This document shows, one piece after another, positions 52,692 to 64,000 of a stretch of 64,000 bases of DNA. Source of the stretch: Abyssibacter profundi (GTDB lineage Bacteria > Pseudomonadota > Gammaproteobacteria > Nevskiales > OUC007); the NCBI RefSeq assembly GCF_003151135.1, contig NZ_QEQK01000002.1:218972-282971 (forward strand), in the 5' to 3' direction. Made by a program: the position numbers and the translations under genes. How positions within the stretch are numbered: the first letter of the stretch is position 1; every line of letters starts with the position of its first letter. The notes under the pieces were generated by a model, which saw nothing but the letters and a program-made list of their open reading frames with translations, did not search any database and was not told the origin of the DNA.

Positions 52692-55622
52692 CTAGACCCA
52701 GCGGCGGCGCAGTCCGGCCAGCAGCAAGACCAGTACGGATAACCAGCCCAGCGAGCCACTGCCGCCCGAGCTGTTGCGTTCGGCCGGGTTGTTCGGCTCA
52801 CCACCCGGTGTGGGTGCGACAGCGACGGTGATCTTGGCCTGGGAGGTTCCACCCTGATCATCGGTCACGGTCAGGCTCGGCTCGAACTCGCCGGCACGCG
52901 TGTAGGTATGCACGACGATCGAATCCGTGCCTTCCACCGAGCTGCCGTCCCCGAAATCGAACGCATACGACACGATATTGCGACCCTGGGCGGCAAACGA
53001 GGCCGAGCCATCAAACTCCACACGCAGTGGGGCGGGGCCTTCGGACCGGTCGATGCTCAACTGGGCCACCGTGCCGTTGTCCGGATTGGTGACCGTCACC
53101 GTGAGCGTGGTCCGGATGACCGTGATCTCGGACTGATCGGCCTTGCCGTCTGCATCGCTGACCACGACATAGGCGTGATACGTGCCCGCCTTGTCATAGG
53201 TGTGGGTCGCGGTTTCCGATGTCGTGGCCGGCATGAACTCCTCTGCCGAAGCCTCGTCACCGAAGACGAACTGATACATGAAGCCGTCGGACTCGATGTT
53301 GTCGCGGTTGCTGTAGCCGGAGTCCTGAGCGTTGAACTCGACGGTGAAGGGCGCCTCGGCCTCAACCATGCTGGTCTGCTGGCCATTGACGGTCATCACG
53401 GCGACGATGTCTTCGCCCGGCTCGTTGCCGTTCTCGCAGGCCGCCGGATCCTGGTCGGGATTCGGCGTGGAGGGACAGTTGTCGATTTCATCCCGGACAC
53501 CATCGTTGTCGCTGTCGGTGTCGTCCTGCGAGTCGCAGGCGTCGCCGGTTCCATCGCCGTCAGTGTCGTCCTGCCCGGGGTTCGAAACCATGGGGCAGTT
53601 GTCCTGCTCATCCGCAACACCGTCGCCATCAGAATCCAGCGGCACGACATCACCGCCGAGCACGGCAGCCGCCCGGGTGACGTCAGGCGATCCATCCTCA
53701 GCCAGATCGTAGATCGGCAGGGCGACGGAGCCGGTGATGCTCACGGCCGGGATCGTGGCGTCGCGGGAGAAGCTGCCGAAGAACTGGGTATGCTGCGGGA
53801 AGAACAGCAGCGCCAGCTCATCGCCAACTTCCAGGCGCTCGGCCACCCCGACCAGGTCCACCGAATGCGTGCCCAGGCCCCGAATCGGGTGGAGCTGGTC
53901 ATCGATCAGCGGGTAGTTGGGCACCTGGCTACCTGCCTTGCGCAAACCCAGCCCGACATAGGTGATGCTGTCGCAGCCCAGCCGCGCGGTCGGAACCAGC
54001 GGTGCGCTGCAGTCCTGCACGGCCTCGTTGCCACCTGCCAGGCTGCTAATCGTCACATCCAGGTGAGGCAGCCCCATCAGCAGGCCCTCTTCAGCCACGG
54101 TACCGAGCGGGACTTCCGCGGGCAGATTGCCTGCAATGCCGGTGATGCCCAATGTGCCGTTGCGGACCGTGGTGGCGGGCACATCGATGCGGGTAAAGCC
54201 GGGTTTCTCGCCGCCTTCAAAACCCTGTTCGGGCTGTGGTGCGAGCACATCGGCTTCTGCGATGGTGACCGAGGTGTCGTCGCCCAGAGCGAAGCACACC
54301 GTGTTGACTCCGCTGTCCGTGCCATTGCCTCGCAGCAAATCATCAAAGATCTGCTGGCGGTCGAACGCGCAGCTGCCCGATTCGCTGGCCTGACTGTCGG
54401 GCGCCTGGGCGAACGGCAGCACGTGTCCGCCGTTATGCGTGGACAGCGTCACGTTAGCACCCGCTGCGGCGAGGCACTGGGTGTTCCACCAGGCCTCTGT
54501 GAGCGTGAACAGCGTGTCGGGCATGCCCTGGGTAATGAAGATGTCCACCCCGTCCAGATAGTCCGAACTCACGGGTCCGACCAGAAAATCGCCCAATCCA
54601 GCGCGGCCGTCAGAGCCCGTAGCGGGGACCGGATTGGCGCCCGCGAAACCCATCGGAACCGCGTCGGGGCCGTAGGGCACATAGGGGCGGAACGGCAGGT
54701 TATTGGCCTCACACCAATGGCTTAGGCTGTGGTAGCGAAACCAATCCAGGGCCGCTCGTGGGAACTCGTTCAGGGAGGCGCCGCGCACGACGGTCTCCTT
54801 GATGAACGGGTCCTGGCCGTCGCCCAGCAGCGGGCCGGCAAAAGGATCGGACTGCTGGCCCAGGGCCGCAAGCGCTAAATCCAGACTGGCGTTGCCGCTG
54901 GCTTCACCAATACCGACCAGGGCCAGTGACCACAAGGTCTTGACGGTATCGCCGGGGTTGAGCGCATAGCGCAGGTCGTGCCAGGTGATGTCCGGCTGGA
55001 GCACATCCAGACGCTTCTTGGCATCGGTCATGAGCAGCAGCAACTGGTATCCGCCGCCGTAGCTTCCCCCGGTCGCGCCGACAACGAGGTTGGCACCGTC
55101 GGGCGTGCTGGTCTCCGCACGGCTCGTCCACTGGCCGGTGGATTCATCGCGCCAGGCCAGGTAATCAAGGTTTTGCTCGGCCCAATCGAGAATCTGGTTC
55201 AGGTATTGACCCTCGGCCTCCGGGTCCATGGTGCGGACCGTACCGCCGGACTCGCCGAACCCGCGCTGGTCGATTGAAATCACGGCGTAGCCGGACGCGC
55301 GGTAGCTGGAGAAACCATTATCGGCGGTGTTGCGACTGCCGCCGTAGCCATGCCCCTGCAGGATGAGCGGGTGGGCACCGTTCGAGGCATTGGCGCAGTC
55401 GATGCTGTCCGGCTCGAACACCTCGAAGCTGTTGGCAAATCCGTCCGGCGCTTCCAGGACGACGTGGTAATGACGTCCACCGGTGGTCTCGGTATCGGTC
55501 TCACAGGAAGCGTTAACAACGGGTGCGGGTGATTCGGAGCCGGGCAGGTCCTGTGCATGGCCGACAGCGGCCAGACAGGACAGCGCAGCACCCATGGCGA
55601 CCCCAAGGTGCAGGTGTTTCAT
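52692..55622 (-). CDS. secreted S15/CocE-like alpha/beta hydrolase with TSP3, PKD and GlyGly-CTERM
   Basis: A 976-residue exported protein. A signal peptide (to about GHA) is followed by a hydrolase domain with [12 protein letters not shown], then Ser187 in [11 protein letters not shown], Asp369 in QGMPDT and His400 in NGGHVLP. Next is a calcium-binding thrombospondin-type-3 region (about 662-730, [15 protein letters not shown] repeats), then two PKD-like domains (about 750-935). The C-terminus [20 protein letters not shown] ending RRRWV is a GlyGly-CTERM signal, normally cut by rhombosortase for surface attachment. A GAGGAG ribosome site precedes the start. The substrate is unknown. Confidence 0.85.
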
Positions 55623-60627: not shown

Positions 60628-61050
60628 TCAGACCAACTGGGCATTCAGAGTGATGGCGGGTTTCAGCGCCTTGGAGATCGGGCAGCCGGTTTTTGCTGTC
60701 TGGGCCGCGTCCAGAAAATCCGCCTCTGATGCGCCGGGTACCGATGCCCGAACATCCAGGTGAATCCGCGTGATGGCAAAGCCCCCCTCGGTTTGGTCAA
60801 GCGTGACGGCGGCATCCACATCGATGAAGTCAGGTGACAGGTCGGCCTGACCCAGCATCATGGCCAGGGCCATGGCGTAGCAACTGGCGTGGGCGGCGCC
60901 GATCAGTTCTTCGGGGTTGGTGCCTTGTTTGTCTTCGAAGCGGGTGGGAAACGAGTAGGGGGACTCAGCCAGTACCCCGCTCTCCGATGACACATGGCCC
61001 TGGCCGGCTTTCAGTGCGCCGGTCCAGCGAGCCTGAGCAGTCCGTTTCAT
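60628..61050 (-). CDS. OsmC/Ohr-family peroxidase
   Basis: A 140-residue thiol peroxidase. The two redox Cys are Cys57 in GAAHASCYAMALAMML and Cys123 in AKTGCPISKALKP, and the N-terminal half has the SFPTRFEDKQGTNPEELIGA stretch of the OsmC branch. It should reduce organic hydroperoxides in the cytoplasm. It lies 81 bp after the crotonase gene on the same strand, so it may protect against lipid peroxides from the adjacent desaturase pathway; that link is inferred. Confidence 0.9.
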   Translation of the reverse strand: MKRTAQARWTGALKAGQGHVSSESGVLAESPYSFPTRFEDKQGTNPEELIGAAHASCYAMALAMMLGQADLSPDFIDVDAAVTLDQTEGGFAITRIHLDVRASVPGASEADFLDAAQTAKTGCPISKALKPAITLNAQLV

Positions 61051-61131: not shown

Positions 61132-61926
61132 TCACTGTTTGCGATCGTCTAATGACTGGCCGTGGCGGCCTACGCCGTCTCGAAAGCGACTGGCACCGGC
61201 AACGGTTTCGCCGGATGCCAGCGTCTCCAGCCCGAATTCGAACTCCTGGGCCATCGCGGCAGGCTCATCCAGCCCCCATTGCGCTAACAGGCTCTGTCGG
61301 TCGTTGCGCAGACAGGTCTGCGGCCGTTCGGTCAGCTCGGCCGCCAGTGCCTGTGCGCTGGCCAAGGCCTGACCCCGCGGGACCAGCCGATTCACCAGGC
61401 CGAATTCCAGCGCCTCAATGGCACCGACGGCGCGGCCGGTCAAGACCATATCCATGGCGCGGCTTTGGCCGATCAGCCGCGGTAGACGAACCGTGCCACC
61501 GTCAATCAGCGGAACGCCGAAGCGACGGCAGAACACGCCGAACACCGCCGTATCGTCGGCGACACGCAGGTCGCACCACAGCGCCAGCTCCAGCCCGCCC
61601 GCCACGGCATGCCCCTCAATGGCGGCGATCACCGGTTTGCTGAGTTGCAGCCGGGATAGTCCCATCGGCGCGTCACCGGAGCGATCGATGCGATTGCTGC
61701 GGGCCGGGTCCTGACTGGCCACGGCCTTGAGATCAGCGCCTGCACAAAAGCCGGTCTCCGCCCCGGTGAGCACGGCCGCACGCAGCGAAGCATCCGCCTC
61801 GAACGCCCGGAAAACCTCGGCGAGGGCATCGGCGGTGGGTCGATCCACGCAATTGCGTTGCTCGGGGCGATTAATCGTGACGGTGAGCACGGCGCCCTGC
61901 CGGCTGCTGATGACCAATGGCTTCAT
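61132..61926 (-). CDS. crotonase-family protein (enoyl-CoA hydratase/isomerase-like)
   Basis: A 264-residue crotonase. FCAGADLKAVASQ and EGHAVAGGLELALWCDLRVA form the acyl-CoA pocket and oxyanion hole, with one conserved Glu in GGLELAL. Classical hydratases have the second catalytic Glu in F-G-x-P-E-x; here the stretch reads VFGVFCRRFGVPLIDGGTVR, so that Glu appears absent, and isomerase, hydrolase or another crotonase activity is possible. The ATG at 61926 gives the family N-terminus. It follows the desaturase by four bases. Confidence 0.85.
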   Translation of the reverse strand: MKPLVISSRQGAVLTVTINRPEQRNCVDRPTADALAEVFRAFEADASLRAAVLTGAETGFCAGADLKAVASQDPARSNRIDRSGDAPMGLSRLQLSKPVIAAIEGHAVAGGLELALWCDLRVADDTAVFGVFCRRFGVPLIDGGTVRLPRLIGQSRAMDMVLTGRAVGAIEALEFGLVNRLVPRGQALASAQALAAELTERPQTCLRNDRQSLLAQWGLDEPAAMAQEFEFGLETLASGETVAGASRFRDGVGRHGQSLDDRKQ

Positions 61927-61930
61927 CTGA

Positions 61931-62920
61931 TTACTCCTGGGTGGACACCGGAACATGGCGACTGCAGGCCAATGCCAGTACCTCGCGGTAACCGGGCGGC
62001 GCTGCGACATGCTGACGATCTCGCAGCAGGCGGTGCAGGGCGGGCAGCCGGTAGTAGGGAACGGAGGCCATGAAATGGTGCTCCAGGTGGTAATTGACGT
62101 GCATGGGGGCGACGGTGCAGCGGGCCAACCATCCCGCCTGCGTGGTCCGGGTATTGCTGCGGATATCGGCACCGGCGGGCAGCATGGCGTGCTCGGCCAA
62201 TGCACGAATCCGTACGAACACAGGAAATGCGAACAGATAGCCAGCCAGCCAGATACCGTAAAGCGCTCCGTGGCCTAGCTGGATCAGCACACCGGCCAGC
62301 ACCGCGTTGGTCACCAGCATCCCGCTGCTATTGCGGATCAAGGCGATGGGATACGACCACCAGCGGCGTCCATTGCGGGGCAGGCGCTCGATGTCGTTGG
62401 CAACGGTCCAGCGAATAACGCCGGCATCCATCAAGACCAAACCGAACATGACCTTGACCATGGTGTAGCCACTGATGTCCCGCAGCAGCTTGCGGGCGAA
62501 GCGGGCGCGGGTCGTGGGGTAGCTCCGATAAAGTGATTCATCGGGGTCACCGGGCTGGCCTGCACGTTTGTGATGTCGATTGTGATGGGCCCGATATCGC
62601 CCGACGTGCTGCCAGATCGGGCGGGCACAAAGCCAATCGGCAGCGTGGTCGTTCAGCCACCGTGTTCTGAAGAGCGTACGATGTGCGGCTTCGTGTTCAA
62701 GAATCGCCAATGCCAGTTGACGATTGCCCATTGCTACAACGGCCAGCAGCCAGGTGACCGGATGCGGCAGCATTGCGCAGAGTGCGAACAGCGCCGCAAT
62801 CGACGCCCAGACCGAGACGATTGCCCAGCCGCCGCGAGCATCCGACCGGCGTGTCAGGGCCGCGATTTCGTCGCGGCTTAACCAGTCGGTCGGTCGCAAG
62901 GGGCTGTGCGTATCAGCCAT
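61931..62920 (-). CDS. membrane fatty acid desaturase-like di-iron protein
   Basis: A 329-residue inner-membrane enzyme. Three His boxes are visible: HEAAH (76-80), HHNRHH (112-117) and HLEHH near residue 276, the pattern of di-iron desaturases and hydroxylases (FA_desaturase family). About four to six helices surround them. Substrate and position of attack cannot be read from the sequence; fatty acyl lipids, sphingoid bases or carotenoids are all possible. It overlaps the PaaX-like gene by 8 bp and precedes the crotonase by 4 bp. Confidence 0.88.
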   Translation of the reverse strand: MADTHSPLRPTDWLSRDEIAALTRRSDARGGWAIVSVWASIAALFALCAMLPHPVTWLLAVVAMGNRQLALAILEHEAAHRTLFRTRWLNDHAADWLCARPIWQHVGRYRAHHNRHHKRAGQPGDPDESLYRSYPTTRARFARKLLRDISGYTMVKVMFGLVLMDAGVIRWTVANDIERLPRNGRRWWSYPIALIRNSSGMLVTNAVLAGVLIQLGHGALYGIWLAGYLFAFPVFVRIRALAEHAMLPAGADIRSNTRTTQAGWLARCTVAPMHVNYHLEHHFMASVPYYRLPALHRLLRDRQHVAAPPGYREVLALACSRHVPVSTQE

Positions 62921-63749
62921 GGCCTAACGCCTCTGGCTGGTGGGCCCGTTGCTTCCAGATGGCCTGTCCCAGCCGGTCAAAGCGCAGGGCGACATCGGTG
63001 AACTCGGCACGCAGCTGCGTGTTGATGAGCGTGTCCGGCAGCAGGGGGTCGAAGACCAACTGCCGGATGGCCTGATCCCCAAGCTCGAAGGCTTCACGGG
63101 CAGCCTGATCAAGCGGTTTGTCCTGCCAGCCGTCCATCCATTGACCCAGGGTTTCGATTTGTTGCCGATAACCCAATTCAAGCTGGCGTCGACGCCAGAG
63201 CCCCGGTGCGGCCTGTGTCCGAGTGGCATCCAGCGTGCTGGTGGTGAACACGGCGGCCGCCGGGTCCAGGCCCAGCCGATAAAGCCGGTCGCGGATGCTA
63301 TCCAGCGAATCGCTGAGATTGTCGGGGCGCAGCGTGAGGCCGGATTCAAGCTCTCGCAGTCCCAACAATTGCAAGGCACGTTCGCGCTGGCGTACGACGG
63401 TTCGATCTGAACGCGGCAGGGCGCCGGTATGGACGATGATCCACCCACCGGACCAGGGCCGGACCCTGGCCTCGCCAGAACGCCAGCGGGCGACATCGTC
63501 CGCAAGCGTGGTCGCGGCGGGGCCGAGCTGGTACTGCCCACGATCAATGTGTTGGATGAGCCCGGCATTGCGGAGCCGGACCAGTGCCGTTCGGGCGCTG
63601 TTATCCGATACACCCATGAGCGTGCAGGCACCGACGAGGGCCTGGGCGGCCATCGGCTGTCCGGTTGTCGCGAGCAGCACCCGAAGAATCACGTCCTTGG
63701 GTCGGGGAAGCTGGCGACCGGCAGATCGGTCAGAGGCAGCTGGCTTCAT
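62913..63749 (-). CDS. PaaX-family transcriptional regulator
   Basis: A 278-residue regulator. The N-terminal winged helix (RPKDVILRVLLATTGQPMAA, NSARTALVRLRNAGLIQ) and the long C-terminal domain with WRSGEARVRPWSGGWIIVHT are those of PaaX, the phenylacetyl-CoA-responsive repressor. No paa catabolic genes are nearby, so its ligand may be another acyl-CoA, made or used by the desaturase and crotonase it is coupled to. It has no Shine-Dalgarno; a large palindrome reaches up to its ATG. Confidence 0.9.
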   Translation of the reverse strand: MKPAASDRSAGRQLPRPKDVILRVLLATTGQPMAAQALVGACTLMGVSDNSARTALVRLRNAGLIQHIDRGQYQLGPAATTLADDVARWRSGEARVRPWSGGWIIVHTGALPRSDRTVVRQRERALQLLGLRELESGLTLRPDNLSDSLDSIRDRLYRLGLDPAAAVFTTSTLDATRTQAAPGLWRRRQLELGYRQQIETLGQWMDGWQDKPLDQAAREAFELGDQAIRQLVFDPLLPDTLINTQLRAEFTDVALRFDRLGQAIWKQRAHQPEALGHG

Positions 63750-63794
63750 AAATGGTACGAAATGCGAACATTATCGGCGCATTCTGTACCATTT
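63750..63794 (-). promoter_or_regulatory. nested 45-bp palindrome at the PaaX-like gene start
   Basis: AAATGGTAC (63750-63758) mirrors GTACCATTT (63786-63794). Inside them AATGCG (63761-63766) mirrors CGCATT (63778-63783), with 11 bp at the centre. On the minus strand the centre holds GATAAT, a candidate -10. The palindrome touches the start codon and lies 9 bp from the receptor stop. It is a likely autoregulatory operator and could also form an RNA hairpin. Confidence 0.65.
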
Positions 63795-63803
63795 GGGCCG
63801 TGC

Positions 63804-64000
63804 TTAAAAGCGGTGCGTCAGGCGTAACCAGTAGCGCCGGCCCAGCAGGCGGTAGGCAGATTCATCCGTGTTCAGCTCGCCGCCATTGGGAATAAACGGT
63901 GGGGCCCGATCGGTGACGTTGTCGACACCGACGACCAGCGACAGGTTGTGCTGGCTGCGGTAACCCAGGTGCACGTCGTGATAAAGCCGCGAGCCCACCG
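63804..64000 (-). CDS. TonB-dependent receptor, C-terminal end (partial)
   Basis: The window ends inside this gene. The 65 visible residues end in alternating beta-strands: NLSLVVGVDNVTDRAPPFI is the conserved penultimate-strand motif, and YWLRLTHRF with terminal Phe is the outer-membrane insertion signal. It is the end of a TonB-dependent receptor barrel. The ligand cannot be told. It lies 54 bp upstream of the PaaX-like gene on the same strand. Confidence 0.85.
   Translation of the reverse strand, partial: VGSRLYHDVHLGYRSQHNLSLVVGVDNVTDRAPPFIPNGGELNTDESAYRLLGRRYWLRLTHRF

Follow-up and report, generated by a model that had tools for sequence, protein, structure and literature searches.

A PaaX-type regulator coupled to a di-iron desaturase-type enzyme and an EchA5-type crotonase in Abyssibacter profundi, with a predicted spaced operator

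Described relatives and the operon in Abyssibacter profundi

Regulators of the PaaX type are known from aromatic catabolism, and DesT of Pseudomonas aeruginosa is a regulator of the TetR type. Here, we compare these and other described systems to an operon for a PaaX-family transcriptional regulator (P0001), a membrane di-iron desaturase-type enzyme (P0002) and an EchA5-type crotonase (P0003). The operon is located in a stretch of 64,000 nucleotides from Abyssibacter profundi (GCF_003151135.1, contig NZ_QEQK01000002.1, positions 218,972 to 282,971 of the forward strand), referred to as the window. We consider it fairly probable that the operon represents a small regulon for the conversion of acyl chains under a distinct subfamily of PaaX-type repressors.

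PaaX of Escherichia coli and Pseudomonas represses its own promoter (PMC9493321), and its inducer is a coenzyme A (CoA) thioester, phenylacetyl-CoA (PMC9493321, PMC4424350). In the DesT-DesCB system of P. aeruginosa, an acyl-CoA sensor controls a desaturase, and the ligands of DesT are acyl-CoAs (PMC10634369). In Mycobacterium tuberculosis, Rv0674 is tabled as the transcription factor for the target Rv0675, which is EchA5 (PMC4928086). A table in PMC7536270 assigns Rv0675 to MmpL5 instead, which is probably a slip. echA5 has been placed last in an operon, and in a knock-out check echA4 is upstream and mmpL5 downstream of it (PMC3220763).

The three genes in A. profundi are located on the minus strand. 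The regulator gene, paaX, codes for a winged helix-turn-helix protein of 278 amino acids (aa) and starts at position 63749 and ends at 62913, followed by the genes for the desaturase-type enzyme (start 62920, end 61931; 329 aa) and the crotonase (start 61926, end 61132; 264 aa). The first two genes overlap by 8 base pairs (bp), and 4 bp separate the desaturase stop from the crotonase gene, in agreement with the tight arrangement and the coordinates of an initial annotation of the window that was made from the sequence alone.

P0001 narrowly passed the cut-off for the PaaX domain (PF07848; 25.4 bits, cut-off 24.8) and scored 21.9 bits against PaaX_C (PF08223; cut-off 22), and it fell far below the cut-off of the PaaX equivalog (TIGR02277; 19.3 bits, cut-off 264.55). 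The AlphaFold2 model of the protein (predicted local distance difference test, pLDDT, 87.2) was most similar to M. tuberculosis Rv0674 (3kfw; Z 17.0, 4.1 Å, 233 residues), tied with E. coli PaaX (8a39; Z 16.6, 4.6 Å, 255 residues). The regulator thus shares with PaaX a near full-length fold, and also a repeat with a spacing of 27 bp just ahead of its own gene (see below), while its equivalog score, its half-site and its gene partners are different.

The genome of A. profundi (3.74 Mb, 47 contigs) contains a single match to PF07848, and no match to the PaaA/PaaC family (PF05138) was found in the whole genome, in which other paa genes were not searched individually. Among the open reading frames of at least 180 aa in the flanking stretch (L002), which were inspected by eye and not scanned with family models, no paa gene was apparent. 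This agrees with the initial annotation, which had noted the lack of phenylacetate genes and had named a complete paa cluster just outside the window as a finding that would speak against its proposal. Given the failed equivalog score, the single PF07848 match and the lack of PaaA/PaaC, a phenylacetate operon is very unlikely, and this role was rejected.

Gene partners and the predicted operator

We searched 85 genomes of the order for the regulator (E 1e-8), the desaturase (E 1e-20) and the EchA5-type crotonase (E 1e-50), which were found in 35, 35 and 65 genomes, respectively. All three genes were located within 5 kilobases (kb) in 19 of the 35 regulator-bearing genomes; paaX was this close to the EchA5 gene in 26 and to the desaturase gene in 24 of them. 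This placement used 52 of the 68 crotonase places, and the sole omission from a regulator-bearing genome was a piece at a contig edge (G060). Three layouts were observed: paaX, desaturase and crotonase on the same strand; the crotonase divergent from paaX-desaturase; and paaX divergent from crotonase-desaturase. The same-strand triplet is rarer, being restricted to the window's genus and one other genome (G037), and the divergent layouts are commoner. The third layout was found in 10 genomes, 8 of which have a more distant type of desaturase (38-41% identity). That the genes have been rearranged and the partners nevertheless kept argues for a functional link, and the recurrence in many genomes indicates that the linkage goes beyond chance. 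The neighborhood search suggested in the initial annotation thus recovered the triplet in other genomes, albeit more often in a form other than that of the window. Neither of the two findings that the initial annotation had named as refuting its proposal was obtained.

The regulator alignment was used to scan GTDB species genomes, and the best 80 of 110 relatives were kept, so that the partner frequencies apply to those members of the subfamily that are closest to the window. At a distance of up to 6.5 kb from the regulator, a desaturase was identified in 43 of the 80 loci, an AidB-type acyl-CoA dehydrogenase in 32, EchA5 in 24 and an EchA4-type crotonase in 11; the AidB and EchA4 counts are based on tblastn with one query each (L089 and L072, respectively), of which the EchA4 query copy scored 448.8 bits to PRK08272 (cut-off 257). 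At least one of these four partners was present in 72 loci and both desaturase and EchA5 in 18, while all four were found in three loci, including a metagenome-assembled genome (MAG) of Oceanococcus (L139) in which they stand in a row. The desaturase was the sole counted partner in 24 loci and the AidB-type dehydrogenase in 23. Two (L062 and L083) of the eight loci without a partner are cut by contig ends. After dereplication at 80% identity, a partner was present in 40 of 46 representatives. Neighbors beyond the four counted partners were spot-checked only. In three Nevskia-type loci (L097, L104, L107), a 396-aa protein is encoded downstream of the regulator, and its copy in L097 contains NHL repeats (PF01436).

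The dehydrogenase resembles the E. coli AidB family (PRK11561, PF18158) in that it scores on the AidB-type model. Six scored copies, of which four were from the 80 loci, reached 490 to 587 bits, with three of the six below the cut-off of 545 bits. It differs from that family in accompanying a PaaX-type regulator and crotonases. At the level of the class, the regulator subfamily was detected in 6 of 369 genomes at E 1e-15, the window's own included, which indicates a patchy distribution.

Directly upstream of paaX lies a 41-bp spaced inverted repeat, ATGGTAC-N27-GTACCAT (positions 63752..63792, no strand), which ends 2 bp before the start codon and whose core, GGTAC-N27-GTACC, covers positions 63754-63790. 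We predict that it is the operator, with the same spacing as in the subfamily and a different half-site. It is the sole exact copy in the window, where any other 14-base match has at least 3 mismatches. A copy with one mismatch, ATAGTAC-N27-GTACCAT, was found in one sister genome (L061 9910-9950), and the other sister species has a hybrid form, GGTACA...CGTAAT.

In the subfamily, the corresponding repeat is ATTAC-N27-GTAAT, which occurs exactly upstream of 39 of the 80 regulators and with at most one mismatch upstream of 59; the controls gave no exact copy and 3 copies with at most one mismatch among 5800 control windows, and 6 of 1600 shuffles at one mismatch. With at most one mismatch, spacings of 23-26 and 28-31 bp reached no more than 4 of 80. 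In the 12-base notation, ATTACA-N25-TGTAAT, sites with up to 2 mismatches were present in 61 of the 80 regulator upstream regions (33 of the 46 representatives), as compared to none of 1882 control segments and 2 of 800 shuffles, and the next best spacing between 15 and 35 bp reached 14 of 80. Across 1.405 Mb of regulator loci, 63 of 68 sites were located upstream of the regulator. The inner spacing equals that of the E. coli PaaX site, TGATTC(N27)GAATCA (PMC9493321), which was consulted after the motif had been derived.

The operator of the subfamily was also found at unlinked target genes. Seven of nine unlinked desaturases were examined (G001, at a contig edge, and G023 were left out), and ATTAC-N27-GTAAT with at most one mismatch was present upstream of six, as compared to 0.02 of 7 in shuffles. 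Among spacings of 10 to 45 bp, the count peaked at 27, followed by 17 (3 of 7). Of the six operator-positive desaturases, four are from a single genus (g14), and four also reach one mismatch at some other spacing between 17 and 37. For EchA5, a site with at most one mismatch in ATTACA-N25-TGTAAT was detected at 16 of 34 gene starts in regulator-bearing genomes and at 0 of 34 in other genomes (Fisher 3e-6, which is only indicative because the genomes are related and not independent). Two (G064, G065) of the eight EchA5 genes off the PaaX contig stretch had such a site, while no fewer than three of the remaining six are pieces at contig edges or lie on broken contigs.

Two abutting operator-like sites, 37 bp apart, were observed at unlinked desaturases of one genus (L017, L018, L020, L023), with 2 mismatches each in L020 and 3 in L017, L018 and L023 in the 12-base notation; they perhaps serve two dimers. 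In an order-wide strict scan (at most one mismatch of 12), which used all 68 crotonase places, 18 of 75 sites adjoined module genes. Away from the three scanned module genes, the 35 genomes with the regulator have 26 sites and the 50 without it have 31, which corresponds to background at this stringency, and a wider regulon was rejected; starts of AidB and EchA4 genes were not part of this count.

The predicted recognition helix of P0001 comprises residues 49-61 of the model. At position 54, the three members of the window's genus have Thr and all 32 other aligned regulators Val or Ile; at position 60, the three members have Arg, and Ser, Ala, Gln or Gly is found in 32 of 32 others. The three regulators with T54 and R60 are those with altered half-sites. 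This pattern in the aligned sequences fits a scenario in which the regulator and its operator changed together in the genus, and the co-variation may reflect a single evolutionary event.

Proposed regulon and alternative explanations

P0002 was identified as a member of the FA_desaturase family (PF00487, 121.3 bits) with three histidine boxes (H76-x3-H80, H113-x2-H116-H117 and H278-x2-H281-H282) that are invariant in 26 aligned sequences. A search of the PDB at E 0.1 gave no sequence relatives. Structurally, its model (pLDDT 87.2) was matched best by two uncharacterised chains of chloroplast FtsHi motor complexes (Z about 20). The nearest enzyme of known chemistry was AlkB (8sbb; Z 13.4, 5.1 Å, 274 residues), while SCD1 gave a Z of about 7 over 202-204 residues.

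P0003 matched ECH_1 (PF00378, 170.7 bits) and exceeded the cut-off of NF006108/PRK08259 (392.1 bits, cut-off 273), and its best PDB matches include EchA5 (3qka, E 2.1e-88). Canonical enoyl-CoA hydratases use two catalytic Glu residues. In an alignment of P0003 to 12 other sequences, 9 of them crotonases of the same genome, the first Glu is kept (GGLELALWCD), and the second position is occupied by Cys (VFCRRFG), as it is in both close homologs aligned (L155 and L058), whereas 8 of the 9 other crotonases of the genome have Glu. P0003 thus has only one of the two Glu residues of the canonical hydratases, and the initial annotation was right in describing a crotonase that lacks one usual Glu. An extra Asp in the motif LIDGGT is common to P0003 and the two close homologs; presumably, it corresponds to the Asp residue of the dienoyl-CoA isomerases.

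We propose that the regulator, probably as a dimer, would bind the spaced inverted repeat, with half-sites 27 bp apart, directly upstream of its own gene and repress the paaX-desaturase-crotonase operon. In relatives, it would also act on divergent or unlinked genes for the desaturase and EchA5. The repressor would be released by a CoA thioester, for which a long or unusual acyl-CoA, and not phenylacetyl-CoA, is the most likely candidate, and the induced membrane di-iron enzyme would then add a double bond, or a hydroxyl group, to acyl chains. The EchA5 crotonase could process the resulting CoA thioesters, in relatives together with the EchA4-type crotonase and the AidB-type dehydrogenase, and the flux might run towards remodelling or degradation.

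A number of observations weigh against this proposal. The window repeat differs from the subfamily consensus ATTACA-N25-TGTAAT at 5 positions, and the consensus occurs nowhere in the genome of A. profundi at one mismatch or less; the repeat was therefore assigned as the operator from its geometry, its position and its counterparts in the sister species. At this site, a sigma-70-type promoter was not called. In the subfamily, 19 of the 80 regulator loci lack a site even at 2 mismatches of the 12-base motif, and when 2 mismatches are allowed in ATTAC-N27-GTAAT, the count rises to 71 of 80, with spacing 30 then reaching 35 of 80. In regulator-bearing genomes, the strict scan marked only 12 of 35 starts of the regulator gene and a single one of 33 starts of the desaturase gene. 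Of the 16 sites at EchA5 genes, most lie in a divergent promoter shared with the regulator, and two (those of G064 and G065) are on other contigs. As to the enzymes, the best curated-family score of P0002 was obtained for the L-arginine hydroxylase GntB (NF041365; 90.2 bits, cut-off 380), and an acyl substrate is therefore unproven. In M. tuberculosis, echA5 mutants showed no significant defect in growth or infection, although they were noted to grow more slowly on glycerol and glucose (PMC3220763). In the window's genome, the AidB homolog is unlinked and preceded by a copy of the 14-base window motif with 4 mismatches (L147 1441-1481), a level at which 10 occurrences are found in the 64-kb window; the copy is thus at chance level, and the homolog was rejected as a target. 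A search for EchA4 (E 1e-40) gave no match in this genome or in the two sister species. From these last two findings, the regulon in A. profundi may consist of the operon alone.

Could the neighbors be incidental to an ordinary paa-type regulation of phenylacetate degradation? This would account for the PaaX domain, the PaaX fold and the equal operator spacing, and it is highly improbable in view of the equivalog score, the genome without PaaA/PaaC and the scanned neighbors, among which spot checks found no phenylacetate genes. Instead of the TGATTC of PaaX, the half-sites are ATTAC or GGTAC, and the partners in the subfamily are the desaturase, the crotonases and the AidB-type dehydrogenase. 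A membrane-fluidity circuit comparable to DesT-DesCB is an explanation that we regard as unlikely, if far less so than the former. The regulator would sense saturated versus unsaturated acyl-CoAs and tune a true acyl-CoA or phospholipid desaturase, with the crotonase as an accessory for handling unsaturated acyl-CoAs. It draws support from the 24 of 80 loci in which the desaturase is the sole counted partner, from the precedent of DesT (PMC10634369), which shares with our system a repressor tied to a membrane di-iron desaturase, and from an Acinetobacter baumannii record in which a site with one mismatch lies between a PaaX-like gene and a desaturase gene, in an AT-rich stretch of 13 kb with three more such sites at 2 mismatches. 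However, P0002 is not DesB (NF052549; 22.7 bits, cut-off 500), and the protein of the genome that resembles DesA is another one (fragment in L012, 72.8 bits of 400; for these other desaturases of the genome, the scores refer to the matched fragments and not to whole proteins). A fluidity circuit would also leave the 23 of 80 loci with only an AidB-type partner unexplained, inspection of the operon by eye revealed no DesC-like electron donor, and the crotonase and AidB-type partners and the PaaX fold of the regulator set the system apart from DesT-DesCB. In A. baumannii, the PaaX-like gene aligns as two pieces in different frames in one locus (L033 7097-7859) and as one piece in another (L160 5097-5858).

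A catabolic module for an unusual carboxylic acid, such as a branched, terpenoid or hydrocarbon-derived one, has a modest chance of being the correct explanation. Here, the di-iron enzyme would be a hydroxylase, the crotonases and the AidB-type dehydrogenase would carry out steps resembling beta-oxidation, and the CoA ester of the substrate would be the inducer. The fold of P0002, which among enzymes of known chemistry is nearer to AlkB than to SCD1, and its best family score, for a hydroxylase, are consistent with this, as are the genes beside the crotonase for an AMP-binding protein in Tistrella and a thioesterase-domain protein in Tsukamurella. Yet the window operon has no apparent gene for a ligase, thiolase or hydroxyacyl-CoA dehydrogenase. 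The two best structural matches of P0002 are chains of FtsHi complexes, and a fold match does not fix the chemistry.

Similar gene sets were found outside the class and M. tuberculosis. In Tsukamurella, genes for the thioesterase-domain protein, EchA5, PaaX and an AidB-type dehydrogenase (490 bits, cut-off 545) are located within about 5 kb; in Rhizobium daejeonense, the AidB-type gene is divergent from paaX; and in Tistrella, paaX is divergent from the genes for EchA5 and the AMP-binding protein. In Nocardia farcinica, EchA5 is encoded near an AidB-type gene, with no PaaX match in the stretch examined. No convincing N27 repeat was seen in the gaps of Tsukamurella, Rhizobium, Tistrella, Nocardia and Nonomuraea. 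The Rv0674-echA5 pair of M. tuberculosis resembles our operon in that Rv0674 is the top structural match of P0001, tied with PaaX, and EchA5 is among the top PDB matches of P0003, while the identity of the regulator to a relative in Tsukamurella is only 29%. We know of no desaturase at the M. tuberculosis locus, where Rv0672 is, by our assumption, fadE8 and AidB-like.

We suggest only tentatively, and with somewhat less than even confidence, a broader reading: a previously undescribed acyl-CoA-sensing regulon of Proteobacteria, the ancient core of which is shared with Actinomycetota. It would place a PaaX-type repressor with its own N27 operator over the membrane di-iron desaturase or hydroxylase, the two non-canonical crotonases EchA5 and EchA4 and the AidB-type dehydrogenase for a so far unknown acyl-chain conversion. 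The echA4-Rv0674-echA5 genes of M. tuberculosis, with the presumed AidB-like fadE8, would then be the same module, and the regulator and operator would have changed together in the genus of A. profundi.

The initial annotation had referred to an undescribed pathway. This stands insofar as our search of open-licence PMC papers for PaaX with desaturase, fatty acid, enoyl-CoA hydratase or AidB found no paper on a link between PaaX, desaturase and crotonase; it has to be qualified in that the regulator and the crotonase have clear relatives in M. tuberculosis, Rv0674 and EchA5, and Rv0674 is tabled as the transcription factor of EchA5 (PMC4928086). An operator that marks desaturase, crotonase and AidB-type genes offers a handle on three poorly understood enzyme groups, EchA4, EchA5 and the AidB-type dehydrogenases: the repressor could serve to identify the acyl-CoA that acts as inducer, which in turn would point to the substrate. 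It also offers a testable function for the Rv0674 region, where deletion of echA5 had no significant phenotype (PMC3220763).

Neighboring genes and further observations

A gene for an OsmC-family peroxiredoxin (60628..61050, minus strand) lies 81 bp downstream of the crotonase gene. Upstream of the operon, the 3' end of a TonB-type receptor gene on the minus strand, identified from the sequence in the initial annotation and by eye, without a family search, covers positions 63804..64000 and runs past the window (L002 5776-8526; 916 aa); it ends 54 bp ahead of the paaX start codon. The initial annotation had suggested that both take part in the pathway. Among the 80 regulator loci at E 1e-5, TonB matches were limited to two loci of the window's genus (L061 and L062), and OsmC had no match. 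OsmC is syntenic in one sister species (G001, L015), and the contig of the other (G002) stops inside the crotonase gene. The linkage is thus confined to the genus, a wider role for the two proteins was not supported, and they were rejected as general partners of the module.

Upstream of the TonB receptor gene is a three-gene cassette (L002 8329-13136, plus strand) for a protein containing SSHREAPGITETP, a TPR-like protein and a membrane protein. We take the first of these to be DUF4331-like. Cassette-like clusters (28, 43 and 42) are found a few kb from the regulator in L062, L066 and L068, and cluster 28 alone in L061, so that the cassette occurs in the window's genus and in two MAG loci of Moraxellaceae, as judged from coarse clustering and an assignment by eye in L002.

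A mobile or viral origin of the operon was rejected: relatives of the regulator were not found in viral contigs by a peptide-pattern scan, and P0001, P0002 and P0003 had no PHROG match. Matches in plasmid records, several of which are chromosome-sized, numbered 6 for the desaturase (E 1e-10), 8 for the crotonase (E 1e-50) and 7 for the regulator (E 1e-10).

Two adjoining genes for S-adenosylmethionine-dependent methyltransferases in the flank (L002 18531-19998) carry what we take to be a motif of glycine betaine synthesis, and this resemblance suggests a halophilic host. Positions 52692-55622 of the window code for a large hydrolase that looks secreted and contains PKD domains as well as thrombospondin type 3 repeats.

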